Positions 33,564 through 38,238 of a stretch of 64,000 bases of DNA are shown one piece after another. The notes beneath the pieces were generated by a model. The model saw only the letters and a list, made by a program, of their open reading frames with translations, had not been told where the DNA came from and ran no database searches. Within the stretch, counting starts at the first letter, position 1. Each line of letters opens with the position of its first letter. The stretch comes from Dictyophora rubrovolvata. Its lineage: Eukaryota; Basidiomycota; Agaricomycetes; Phallales; Phallaceae. The position numbers were made by a program, and so were the translations under genes. The stretch spans positions 1,302,001 through 1,366,000 of the forward strand of contig CP114124.1 in assembly GCA_029959195.1 (NCBI GenBank), read 5' to 3'.

Positions 33564-35034
33564 TCAAATCTTGGTCAACTTGAATCCTACCTTTTTCGTC
33601 CTTGTAATAAAACACAACATGCCACCGAAAATCAAAACGAAGCCGCTGAAGAACCACGTTCCAATGTAAGCTTTAGCACCGGTCTGATCATGTTGCCCTC
33701 TGCTTAAAATTGCGCCTCCAATGGGATTACCCACCAACGCGAAGAACGAGGCTATAGTGTAGGCCATACCGACTCGAGTACCGATGTGATCCGGGCGGGG
33801 GGTGAGATGAGCAATTATAGCAGGTGGCAGAGAAATCATGCTGCCGGATATAAATCCGTACAAAATGCCCAGCACAACGAGGGAGCCGGATGTGTTGGCT
33901 GCGGACCAAAGAAGGGCAACAACACCTGCGAGGACGATCGAAGGAGTCATGATATTAAGTCCTCCAGTTCTGGATGGGTTAATTTCCTGTTAGATGAAGA
34001 TGAATATTCGGACTGCAGAATGCAACGTACTTGTCAGCCAAGTAATTCGGTCCTGTACGGCCGACAAGACTACAGGCGTTCATTATGGGTAGCAACCATT
34101 TGGCAAGGTTCGCTTTTACATGGATTACACCTGCATAGCTCTCGACATAGTTGTAAGGGATGTAACTACCCATCAACATCATCGAGAAGGCACCCACGAA
34201 GGACGTATATGCGCCTTCATGGAAGGCACCAACTTCCCAGAATGGTCCTTGTTTGCGTGGCGGTAGACGCAAACGAATAGCAGCGATGCAGATCGCGAGA
34301 GTAGAGAGCATGATGAAGCCGAGGATACGCATGGACCAGGCGAAACCGACACGACTCAGTAGATTCGAGAAGATGATAGGGTAAACGATTCCAGCTGCAG
34401 AAATGACTTCAGTTAAACAATACTCATTCTGGTGAACTTTGCTCACCTAGGCTGCTTCCGGTTGCTGCAACTCCGAATGCTGTCATCCTGTTGTGACGAA
34501 AAAACTGACCCAACACCGTTGGACAAGGGTACCACAAGAATCCAGCACCTAGCCCTACACAGATACCCTGAGAGAGAAATAGCTGCCAATATTTGGTGCT
34601 GATCGAGGCCATCATCATACCGAATACCTGAAAGAACGTGCCAATGAGAAGTTGAGTGTACAAATAACCGGCATCGACAAGACGGCCGCAGGGTGCGCCT
34701 ATGATCATTAGTAGGAAAGTTTGTATACCCCCTATCCAAGAGATGGTAGAAGGTGAAGAGTTTGGGAGCAGAGATGTTGTGTAATAGTCTTGAAAGACCC
34801 CAAATGAATTGAGAAGTCCCCTGCGGGTTGTGAGACAACGTATACGGAAAGTGAAAACACTCACCATGTATTGAAAAATATCATCCATGAAGCAAGAACT
34901 TGCAACCAAGCCACTAGTCCGCCATCTGGAGGGGCTTCTTCTTCGACAATGATGTCCTGCGAGTCTTTCTCTGAGGAAGATTGAACTACTACGACCTTTT
35001 CGTTGACTGTCGGAGAGGTTTCCTCGCTTTGCAT
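33564..35034 (-). CDS. MFS transporter, monocarboxylate transporter-like
   Basis: Major facilitator of the fungal MCT (SLC16-like) type. The cytosolic N-terminus MQSEETSPTVNEK is acidic and leads to APPDGGLVAWLQVLASWMIF, the PDGGxGWxVV-type signature of MCT proteins. TM2 follows across an intron (GLLNSFGVFQDYYTT), then WIGGIQTFLLMIIGAPCGRL, LGAGFLWYPCPTVLGQFF, FGVAATGSSLG, AGIVYPIIFSNLL and MGSYIPYNYV. The second half has AAIIAHL-type TMs (FISGSMISLPPAIIAHL, YTIASFFALVGNPIGGAIL, GTWFFSGFVLIFGGMLCFI) and ends KKVGFKLTKI. Twelve helices are plausible. Probably a plasma-membrane carrier for a carboxylate or related small molecule. Its position between the methyltransferase and the ALAS-like gene suggests export or uptake of a product. 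Confidence 0.92.
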
Positions 35035-36556
35035 GACGAATGGAGAGAGAAAAGCTGTTCTCGTTCAGGTGTGCACAGAAAAGAGACAGACATTTGAGTC
35101 AAAGATGGATGAAAAATAATTCTATCCGAGTGGTAAGCGGTAAGCAATATTCAAGGTTATCCCACGCGATTTCGCCGGGTACACATACCATCGCTAAGCA
35201 ATGGTGAACAGAAATCGAAAGACAATAATTCTCCTGACTACGTATTCAAGTTCTCGAAAGCCTCCGGATCCATTTGGGCGTGTTTTATTCAAATTTTCAG
35301 ACTTCAGAACCCCCGCTAATAGTGTATATCGGAGCCCGGATATTAATATTGAATAATCATCACGAGCAACTTCAAGATGATCTTGAGTTGATCATGAATA
35401 ATCCGACTTTTGTACAGGTGAGATCCCCCTTTTCCCTGGCATTGAGTGCGAATTAATTGCGCCACATGGTGGATTGTAAGCTGATGCTAGCCGAGATTCA
35501 ATATTCAACATTTGCTTCCTGCCAAAAAATGGTACCGGTGTAAATCTCTCTAGGGCCGATTCAAGTTGAGAAGCAAGCCAGCTTTTGTATGCCTTGTCCG
35601 TGAGGCTAAGGAGTTAATGTAAAAATCTTCACGCGAGAAGCACTCAGGGATCGGACTGTACCAGTGGTGCGAACTCTTAGATCTTGAAGATTTGCCAGAA
35701 GAGGGTACGAAAACTTAACTTCTGGCTGCATACAAGGGCCGTGGTACAATTAATTAAAAGGCACCATCAACACAAACGGGGCAACGGGCTTTACGCTAAA
35801 AAGAATTGAGCTCAAATTCACGGAAGAAACCTTGAAGGAAACAACACAATCAGGGAGCTTGAGAGTATCCGTGAGAGAGAATAATTGCAGCGTACATGAT
35901 TTAATTCGAGAGTACCGAGGCGGCCTTTTTGCGCACAACTGTAGCTATTTCGTTAGCAGCCAGAACTGCGGTCAAATCCAATTTAAATTTTCTCAAGCTA
36001 ATGAGGGACATCGCCGTTGGCAGTCTTAAACTTAGTAGCAGAGTTGCGGCGCTCACGGTCGTGTCGAAGTATTAAATGTCTTATCATTGGCGGTAATGTA
36101 ATTACTCGTTGCAATGAAATATAATTCAACTTGATGTTGATTTTTGAACGACATTCACTTTGACGCAGCGTGCCCGTTTTCAAAAGTGCAAGGCCCGGAT
36201 AAGGAATGCACATAATAATGAAATGCCACAACTGGAAGGTCGTCTAGGGGACAAACCGCTGGTAAATTCAAATGTAAAGGAAAAAAGGAAAGAAAACGCT
36301 CACGACATTAATTGTCTATCGTTGATACAGCAGTGCTATGAACATGAAAATTACGCGAGCTGATGTCCAGATACTTCGAAAACAAAAGCTCCACAAAAGA
36401 AAGAAATTACGCAAGCAAAAGAGTTAATATATTCTTCGAGGTTTCAGGGCCAGATTTGCACTCGTATAAAGAGAATGGTGCAACTTCTCTCTTTACAGTC
36501 CTAACGCTCACTTCCTCTTGACAGAACACCCTTTAATACGGTTCCCTAAAAAATGA
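35035..36556. other. 1.5 kb intergenic with faint coding-like remnants
   Basis: No intact gene. Weak coding-like stretches occur at 35274-35420 (EQLQDDLELIMNNPTFVQ before a gtgaga donor) and 35565-35715 (KPAFVCLVREAKELM, then LYQWCELLDLEDLPEEGT), which may be decayed exons, but I cannot assign a family. The MFS and ALAS-like promoters must also lie here. Confidence 0.35.
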
Positions 36557-38238
36557 ATGCCCAATCTCTTCGACGAGCTGTACACACAGTGTCAAAGCGG
36601 CAACGTGCCATGGCCACAGAAATTCCAAGCTATGAGCCCCTTGGTGATGAACGACCTTGATTGTTAAAACGTCACTCACTTACCTGCAAATATCATCTTC
36701 TAGTCAACCTTGAAAACGAGCTCAAGCCCTTCTCACTTAGGCCACTGGAAACATCCCAAACACAGTTCGCTTACACTGACTTCTTTAAAGATAAACTTCA
36801 ACAAAAAAAGGATGATAATGTATATACAGTACTTGCCTCGTTGAAATATGGCCGACACTTACTTTTGACTATATGCTAGACCTATCGTATTTTCCGTAAC
36901 CTAAACCGCACCATTACTTCAAAATCTACCCTCGCTCGCTACGTTGATCCATCAGGGAAAGAAGCCAGCCTCCACATCAGCGTCTGGAGTAGCAACGACT
37001 ATGTAAATATCAGAATTCATATATCTCCTGTCATTCATAGTACTCACGGTTTACTCTAGCTCGGACTCTCCAAAAGTCCAGTTGTTACGTCGGCTGTTAA
37101 ATCAGCTATAGAAGCTTATGGTGTCTCAGCTGGAGGGTCGCGTAACATCGCTGGCCACAATAACCAGGTTCGCTCCTTGGAAGCTGCGCTCGCTAAATTC
37201 CATAACAAGGACGGTGCGCTTGTTTTCAGCAGTGGGTACGTTGCAGGCAGCGAGACGCTCGACGCGCTGGGAAAACACATTCCAAATGTTGTTTTCCTCT
37301 CCGATAGCGAGAACCATGCGTCAATGATTGCTGGAATGAGGAACAGCCGGGCCCGCCGTCTCATTTGGAAGCATAATGACATGGAGGATCTTGAGCGTCA
37401 GTTGCAGACACTTCCGCTCTCACAACCCAAAGTTATTGCCTTCGAAAGCGTTTATTCTATGAGTGGAAATGTCGCACCCATTCGTGATATTATCCAGCTG
37501 GCGAAAAAATATGGCGCCTTGACTTTTCTAGACGAAGTGCACGGTGTCGGCCTATACGGCCCAAACGGCGGCGGCGTCAGCGAACATCTCGACTGGGAAA
37601 TTCATTACAATGGCAATCCACTCGGTCAACGTACCCTACAAGATGAAATAGATATTATTTCAGGGACAATGGGCAAGGCATTCGGTACCTACGGCGGCTT
37701 CATCGCGACTTCTGCGGAGGTAGCCGACATGGTGCGCTCCTTTGCCTCAGGCTTCATCTTCACGCTCGCACTCCCACCTGCACTCATGGCTGGTGGTGTA
37801 GCATCTGTCGAGTACGTTGCCAAGAGTTCACAAGAAAGAGTACGTTTGGCGAAGAACGCTCTCCTCGTGAAAAAGCTCTTGTATGATTATGATATTCCCG
37901 TTACGCCCAACCCCAGTCACATTCTGCCCATATTCGTAGGCGAAGCCGAGAAGACAAGAAAAGCCGCAGAGGTATTGTTGGACGAGCATTCAATTTATGT
38001 TACACCAGTGAACGCTCCGAGCGTTCGACCTGGTCAGGAAATATTGAGGATCAGCCCGGGAGCAATACATACAAAAGAAGATTGCTATGCGCTTGCGAAA
38101 GGTTTAGATGTCGTTTGGACAAAACTGGGTATCAAGAGGGGCCGTCAATGGGATCCGACTGGGTTGCGATTCGAGAACAATCACAAACCTCTTTGGACAC
38201 CAGGTCAACTGGACCAAGCGGTATCGAAAAGCTCCTGA
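36557..38238 (+). CDS. 5-aminolevulinate synthase-like alpha-oxoamine synthase without presequence
   Basis: PLP enzyme condensing an amino acid with an acyl-CoA. Exons 36557-36662, 36704-36819, 36880-37002 and 37060-38238 give 507 residues. Start chosen at 36557 because this frame splices cleanly into FAYTDFFKDKLQQKKDD and TYRIFRNLNRTITSKSTLAR. ALAS hallmarks follow: VWSSNDYLGLSKSP, GVSAGGSRNIAGHNN, FLSDSENHASMIAGMRNSRA, FESVYSMSGNVAPI, TFLDEVHGVGLYGPNGGG, the PLP lysine in DIISGTMGKAFGTYGG, and GFIFTLALPP. Unlike true ALAS it has no mitochondrial presequence or Cys-Pro haem motifs; the N-terminus MPNLFDELYTQCQSG is acidic. Usual TRNISG reads SRNIAG and usual FTTSLPP reads FTLALPP. Probably a cytosolic paralogue with changed acyl-CoA preference rather than the haem-pathway enzyme. 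Confidence 0.88.

Follow-up and report, generated by a model that had tools for sequence, protein, structure and literature searches.

Within a 64,000-nucleotide stretch of Dictyophora rubrovolvata DNA (hereafter the window), one gene encodes a protein that, by its sequence, is an apparently lineage-restricted member of the ALAS family whose active site is altered, and that accompanies a canonical ALAS encoded on another contig. The reading we favour, which we hold with confidence and doubt about evenly matched, is that of a mitochondrial-type second member of the family, probably horizontally acquired, that would work on succinyl-CoA and supply an aminoketone outside haem feedback.

The predicted gene has four exons and three introns (60, 60 and 57 nt), encodes 502 amino acids and ends with a stop at 38238. 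The exons were joined by working back from the alignment of exon 4 to yeast, human and bacterial ALAS, and on this alignment the gene is real and its structure is established as follows:

36553..36643, plus strand: exon 1, with the ATG at 36553, an in-frame TAA upstream at 36547 and the basic leader MNAQSLRRAVHTVSKRQRAMATEIPSYEPL
36704..36819, plus strand: exon 2, VNLENELKPFSLRPLETSQTQFAYTDFFKDKLQQKKDDN, in which the catalytic domain begins
36880..37002, plus strand: exon 3, TYRIFRNLNR...SVWSSNDY, with Arg72 (R. capsulatus Arg21) and Asn108 (Asn54)
37060..38238, plus strand: exon 4, from LGLSKSP... to the stop, carrying most of the core catalytic region and a short WTPGQL stretch in the C-terminal part

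The ATG at 36553 is the first in the coding frame, and exon 4 runs for 391 codons without a stop. The 5' end rests on predicted splicing, the donor of exon 1 being the atypical GTGATG, and the solved ALAS start to align with the query at residue 47 for yeast, 49 for human, 54 for R. palustris and 60 for R. capsulatus. The predicted N-terminus is MNAQSLRRAVHTVSKRQRAMATE; its residues 1-22 have a charge of +5 with no acidic residue, and with charge as the sole basis of the call the leader of exon 1 is likely a mitochondrial presequence. Its amphipathicity is unremarkable, being reached by 7.85% of 2000 shuffles. A second in-frame Met is codon 20, in the context GCC-ATG-G. The first-pass annotation had described an acidic N-terminus, MPNLFDELYTQCQSG, and had placed the enzyme in the cytosol for want of a presequence. 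The acidic peptide is the product of an out-of-frame ATG at 36557, which stops after 36 residues when unspliced and meets stops when spliced; since it was read from the wrong frame, the cytosolic location is unsupported. Indeed, the alternative raised in the same annotation, that a 5' exon with a presequence had been overlooked, largely holds, exon 1 giving a basic leader. The reported lack of Cys-Pro haem regulatory motifs was borne out, given that residues 1-60 contain no Cys.

The exon 4 product scores 447.9 bits against the ALAS model TIGR01821 (cut-off 338.55), and 263.5, 237 and 228.1 against bioF, KBL (PRK06939) and SPT, each under its own cut-off. The predicted fold is confident and structure comparison puts yeast ALAS first. 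The motifs noted in the first-pass annotation (DEVHGVG, GTMGKAFG, SRNIAG and FTLALPP) all lie in a single open frame at 37063-38235 of the window, and the ALAS catalytic signature is present, with the PLP lysine Lys316, Asp268 and His271 of DEVH and the substrate-binding Arg440. In R. capsulatus numbering Arg21, Asn54, Asn85, Ser137, His142, Asp214, His217, Lys248 and Arg374 are conserved, and in the numbering of the window protein the conserved residues include Arg72, Asn139, Ser191, Asp268, His271, Lys316 and Arg440. We take Arg21, Asn85, Ser137 and Arg374 of R. capsulatus to be carboxylate contacts. The altered positions are T83S, C115G, T278L and T365S, the active-site residues Thr83 and Thr365 being replaced by Ser137 and Ser431 of the window protein:

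37138..37140, plus strand: Ser137 (T83S), at the amino-acid and succinyl-carboxylate site
37234..37236, plus strand: Gly169 (C115G), adjoining the PLP phosphate and aligned with human Cys258 (contact from the available part of PMC7272653)
37675..37677, plus strand: Lys316 (Lys248), the conserved catalytic PLP lysine
37762..37770, plus strand: Thr345-Leu346-Ala347, FTLAL against FTTSL, including T278L, aligned with human Thr421
38020..38022, plus strand: Ser431 (T365S), inside VNAPSVRPGQE

These residues were compared with a reference set of 350 canonical, mostly fungal, eukaryotic ALAS rows, made up of the listed search hits and the fungus's own copy minus four paralogs. Thr83 and Cys115 are each present in 350 of 350 rows. 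At position 365, 348 rows have Thr; the other two, the canonical-looking P0071 and P0099, carry Ser365 alone. Furthermore, 170 positions are conserved in at least 97% of the rows, and 31 of them are changed in the window protein as against one in the own canonical copy. The departure of SRNIAG from TRNISG, to which the first-pass annotation had drawn attention, is only in part unusual: SRN is rare and IAG for ISG is ordinary in fungi. Indeed, 122 proteins comprise 117 with TRN (TRNIAG 70, TRNISG 47), two with SRN (the window protein and P0003) and three in which the stretch is absent, and position 83 in 355 proteins is Thr in 349 and Ser in three (P0001, which is the window protein, P0003 and P0243), the stretch again being absent from three.

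The C115G change need not alter function, because Gly115 is also found in all four alphaproteobacterial ALAS rows. A Thr of FTTS had been regarded as an acyl-CoA contact; in the available parts of PMC7272653 and PMC8892079, the FTT pair (Thr420 and Thr421 of the human enzyme) binds instead the PLP phosphate of the partner subunit, and for this reason the FTL change would affect cofactor binding and not acyl-CoA. For ALAS, PMC4525017 (in part) describes Thr83 as positioning the succinyl carboxylate and directing amino-acid specificity, and the equivalent residue of ThAOS governs amino-acid choice (PMC11906848, in part). The different acyl-CoA substrate that had been deduced from the altered residues is not implied, because T83S and T365S retain the hydroxyls and the same two changes are carried by actinomycete cyclizing ALAS (cALAS), which condense glycine with succinyl-CoA according to the available part of PMC4525017. 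The pocket is really altered, which makes a non-standard role plausible, as the first-pass annotation proposed; its new acyl-CoA is unsupported.

A search of the genome (28,239,528 bases, 11 contigs) for a second, canonical ALAS found it on contig C10 (G000:C10, about 76155-78197), with 638 amino acids, three exons, three Cys-Pro sites and 89% identity to the ALAS of Clathrus columnatus. Since this copy sits on another contig, haem has its own enzyme and the window gene is a true second ALAS-family enzyme, so that the concern that it might be the only ALAS in the genome proved false. The two proteins are 45-47% identical, depending on alignment, and share the fold, the PLP lysine, DEVH, GT(L/M)GKA, the arginines, a trace of WTxxQL and a presequence-like leader; the window protein differs in its lack of Cys-Pro motifs, in T83S, C115G, T365S and T278L, and in its position in the tree. 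The whole-genome search with the window protein gave six matches, the others being serine palmitoyltransferase 2-like (two pieces) and a gene closest to enzymes of the SphA/AONS type. An oxoamine-synthase-like locus (L017, G000:C2:2706306-2706797, minus strand) has SphA as its nearest solved structure (9pep, 136 bits), and its family match contains two TAA, a possible sign of introns or of decay. In the genome, a single place each was found for HEM2 and HEM3, which rules out a duplicated porphyrin pathway as far as these two genes go. A contaminant contig was likewise rejected, the ATP synthase alpha exon of the window having one full match in the genome, with the other 29% identical, and contig C8 being 2.4 Mb long.

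Protein searches with the paralog covered 5.8 billion sequences, with 7998 and 8000 candidates scored and the best 120 of each listed. Among those listed the relatives are P0003 (96%), P0004 (78%) and P0243 (54%, with the three-sequence profile only), and both P0004 and P0243 are named 5-aminolevulinate synthase in their source. P0004 shares FTLAL and Ser365. P0243, a metagenome protein, is changed at 83, 115 and 365 and has SRN and YPSV, yet its FTTSLPP is intact; because of this combination the Thr-to-Ser pair defines the clade and, in the order these residues indicate, is the first change to have arisen, FTT to FTL being the later one. Clathrus, Gautieria and Sphaerobolus showed canonical copies only among the matches listed.

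In the 57-row tree that includes P0243, the four paralogs form a clade (100/99) within a group of 23 rows (100/99) with ascomycetes, 8 of the 19 other rows of this group carrying ascomycete names, and the paralog clade adjoins P0010 (90/83). In this tree, uniting the paralogs with basidiomycetes was rejected (p 6.3e-9), as was uniting them with cALAS (AU p 1.8e-68). A copy predating the ascomycete/basidiomycete split was also rejected (p 0.0047), and a placement just outside Ascomycota was not (p 0.38). The ascomycete placement depends on one metagenome protein, P0243, and without it the paralogs, whose branch is then very long, come out basal to the sampled fungi (91 rows) or to eukaryotic ALAS (49 rows). 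The 49-row tree again rejects a union with basidiomycetes (p 0.0035) or with cALAS (p 0.00014); its free version is not the best tree, because a constrained search with fungi and paralogs together and human outside scored 9.2 log units higher. The trees rule out a recent origin by duplication of the fungus's canonical ALAS and reject descent from bacterial cALAS. As for the possibility, also raised earlier, that the protein groups inside haem-pathway ALAS, it does nest within the fungal ALAS, but its branch is long and its active-site residues are changed. Horizontal transfer from an ascomycete-type ALAS lineage is the simplest reading, and old paralogy with many losses may account for the pattern instead. 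Among the matches listed for fungal ALAS paralogs or transfer, the open literature contained no report of this gene.

The cALAS of the asukamycin, limocrocin and manumycin clusters share Ser83, Gly115, Ser365 and the NAPSV motif with the window protein, whose VNAPSVRPGQE resembles their INAPSVRxGEE and whose G115, A363, I372 and A379 agree with most cALAS rows as well. Of the four cALAS markers published in PMC4525017, T83S and T365S are present; position 149 is Met (Met203) and not the Leu or Val of marker I149L/V, and position 231, for marker D231T, is Glu in the chain numbering used here, from which the numbering of the paper may differ. At 30 columns that separate cALAS from canonical ALAS, the window protein matches cALAS in 6, canonical ALAS in 16 and neither in 8. 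Among 237 canonical eukaryotic rows, 191 match cALAS at none of these columns, 22 at one, 16 at two and 8 at three, and the bacterial rows match at 3 (L138, L140), 8 (L144, L146) or 9-11 columns (Pseudomonas-type SRN rows, 22 of 28 shown). The resemblance to cALAS is real and not specific, because several bacterial ALAS match more columns. The window protein also differs in its leader and introns and in the rejection of a common clade, and cALAS have partner genes, whereas neither a ligase nor an amide synthase was seen near the window gene.

Bacterial GGSRN loci amount to at least 120 stretches, found with a pattern restricted to a single codon family each for serine and arginine. They were grouped by residues 149 and 365 into sets of 58, 28 and 22, with 12 of 120 stretches dropped; the Ser83 and Ser365 counts in these sets hold by construction and Gly115 (108/108) is independent. 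All four of the Streptomyces GGSRN loci scanned for neighbours (L020, L023, L042 and L059) have an AMP-binding ligase beside the gene, on both sides in L059, and were taken as cALAS from this gene context. In the window, the AMP-binding (acyl-ligase) search gave no match among the 18 listed, 14 of 68 candidates being scored, and the amide synthase and ligase queries from the Streptomyces triad gave none among the 14/14 and 27/27 candidates scored. A C5N triad elsewhere in the genome was rejected, the matches to ligases being weak and generic, and no report of this gene was found among the matches listed from the open literature on fungal C5N compounds. Separately, L021, L024, L022 and L064 hold Pseudomonas- or Bacillus-type GGSRN ALAS, those of L024 and L022 exceeding the ALAS cut-off; an acyl ligase was absent among the two neighbours scanned at each of L024 and L022 and among the neighbours scanned at L021 and L064. 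The hemA-annotated gene of L146, on a Rhizobium gallicum plasmid, has GGARSISG for GGTRNISG, is flanked by genes for an acetyl-CoA C-acyltransferase and for an MFS transporter, and has a very long branch in the 91-row tree. In the Dictyophora genome, AMP-binding matches stand in a row over ~13 kb at G000:C8:2067574-2080676, a possible tandem ligase array.

Around the gene, ten reading frames were scanned within the 64-kb window, of which six had Pfam hits, and the neighbours are C2H2 zinc-finger, cytidylyltransferase-like, adaptin, DNA ligase and mL44-like mitochondrial ribosomal genes and the following transporter:

33564..35034 (ends approximate), minus strand: MFS transporter with the motif PDGGLVAW, MFS_1 35.7 bits in one exon piece

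The transporter, presumably monocarboxylate-transporter-like, is divergent from the ALAS-like gene with ~1.5 kb between them, and co-regulation is possible. Among the frames scanned the neighbourhood looks housekeeping rather than like a biosynthetic cluster; this, with no acyl-ligase match in the window among those listed, leaves unsupported the suggestion that the gene is the entry step of a small-molecule pathway.

Several other explanations were weighed. An ordinary second ALA synthase, condensing glycine and succinyl-CoA for haem or porphyrin under other regulation, in the manner of animal ALAS1 and ALAS2, and changed by drift in a redundant copy, is possible if on the doubtful side: the score above the TIGR01821 equivalog cut-off, the hydroxyls retained at 83 and 365 and the extra ALAS in a porphyrin-gene cluster of Microsporum gypseum (PMC3408471, in part) favour it, whereas HEM2 and HEM3 are each found once and positions fixed or nearly so in the 350 canonical rows are changed, with 83, 115 and 365 changed again in P0243. 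That the gene is a decaying copy without function appears very improbable. Its fast branch, of length 1.27 above the three closest copies, and the 31 of 170 conserved positions changed would fit decay, but exon 4 is free of stops, the catalytic residues are kept, the predicted fold is confident and the 78% relative P0004 shares FTLAL and Ser365.

Two further explanations would give the enzyme another chemistry. A fungal cyclizing ALAS, convergent with the actinomycete enzymes, that forms ALA and then closes it into 2-amino-3-hydroxycyclopent-2-enone (C5N) would explain the two published markers (PMC4525017, in part), the four further residues that agree with most cALAS rows and the likeness of VNAPSVRPGQE to INAPSVRxGEE; it is nevertheless quite unlikely, given Met at the I149L/V marker, the 6 of 30 separating columns matched, the closer agreement of L144 and L146 (8 columns each, against 3 in L138 and L140), Tyr363 in P0004 and P0243, and genome best matches to the amide synthase and ligase queries (2.7e-10 and 7.6e-18) that are generic acyl-ligase. 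We consider improbable a different acyl-CoA or non-succinyl substrate used in the cytosol, with translation starting at the codon-20 Met; the GCC-ATG-G context and the 31 changed positions are in its favour, but the leader is in frame and the putative succinyl-carboxylate residues, contacts which we in part assume, are kept or changed from Thr to Ser.

According to the reading of a horizontally acquired, mitochondrial-type second enzyme, the gene would descend from an ALAS near the ascomycete type that was probably passed horizontally to the stinkhorn lineage. Its Cys-Pro haem motifs and the greater part of its C-terminal extension are gone, but the PLP machinery is kept, as are the residues presumed to hold the glycine and succinyl carboxylates. 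As to import, substrates, product and role, we infer that the enzyme would enter mitochondria and act as an alpha-oxoamine synthase, with succinyl-CoA or a similar dicarboxylic acyl-CoA as its acyl donor. Given Ser in place of Thr83, the amino acid would probably be glycine, possibly also a slightly larger one in a relaxed amino-acid site. The product would be ALA or a closely related aminoketone, made free of haem feedback and for a purpose other than bulk haem. Because Thr to Ser is mild, simple production of ALA for haem is also conceivable. It is unlikely, although it would be the bolder outcome, that this is an independently evolved eukaryotic cyclizing or product-altering ALAS, with which the stinkhorn would make an ALA-derived cyclopentenone or other aminoketone from an ascomycete-derived gene.

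A second copy that apparently came from another lineage, and that is changed at the active-site threonines used to separate ALAS from cALAS, offers a ready test case for the evolution of ALAS specificity in eukaryotes, and the host being an edible cultivated mushroom, a product can be sought directly. Moreover, the name 5-aminolevulinate synthase, when given from a profile only, hides a distinct subgroup, as in P0004 and P0243.

A single ALAS, tied to haem, is the norm in fungi. Animals have ALAS1 and ALAS2, both makers of ALA, and the fungus described here resembles them in having two ALAS genes per genome; it differs from them in that the window copy has changed active-site residues and an origin separate from that of its partner. 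Microsporum gypseum VLB-6/9 likewise shows ALAS paralogs in a fungus (PMC3408471, in part), but when compared by gene context its genes are clustered with those for porphobilinogen synthase and deaminase, whereas the window gene stands alone.
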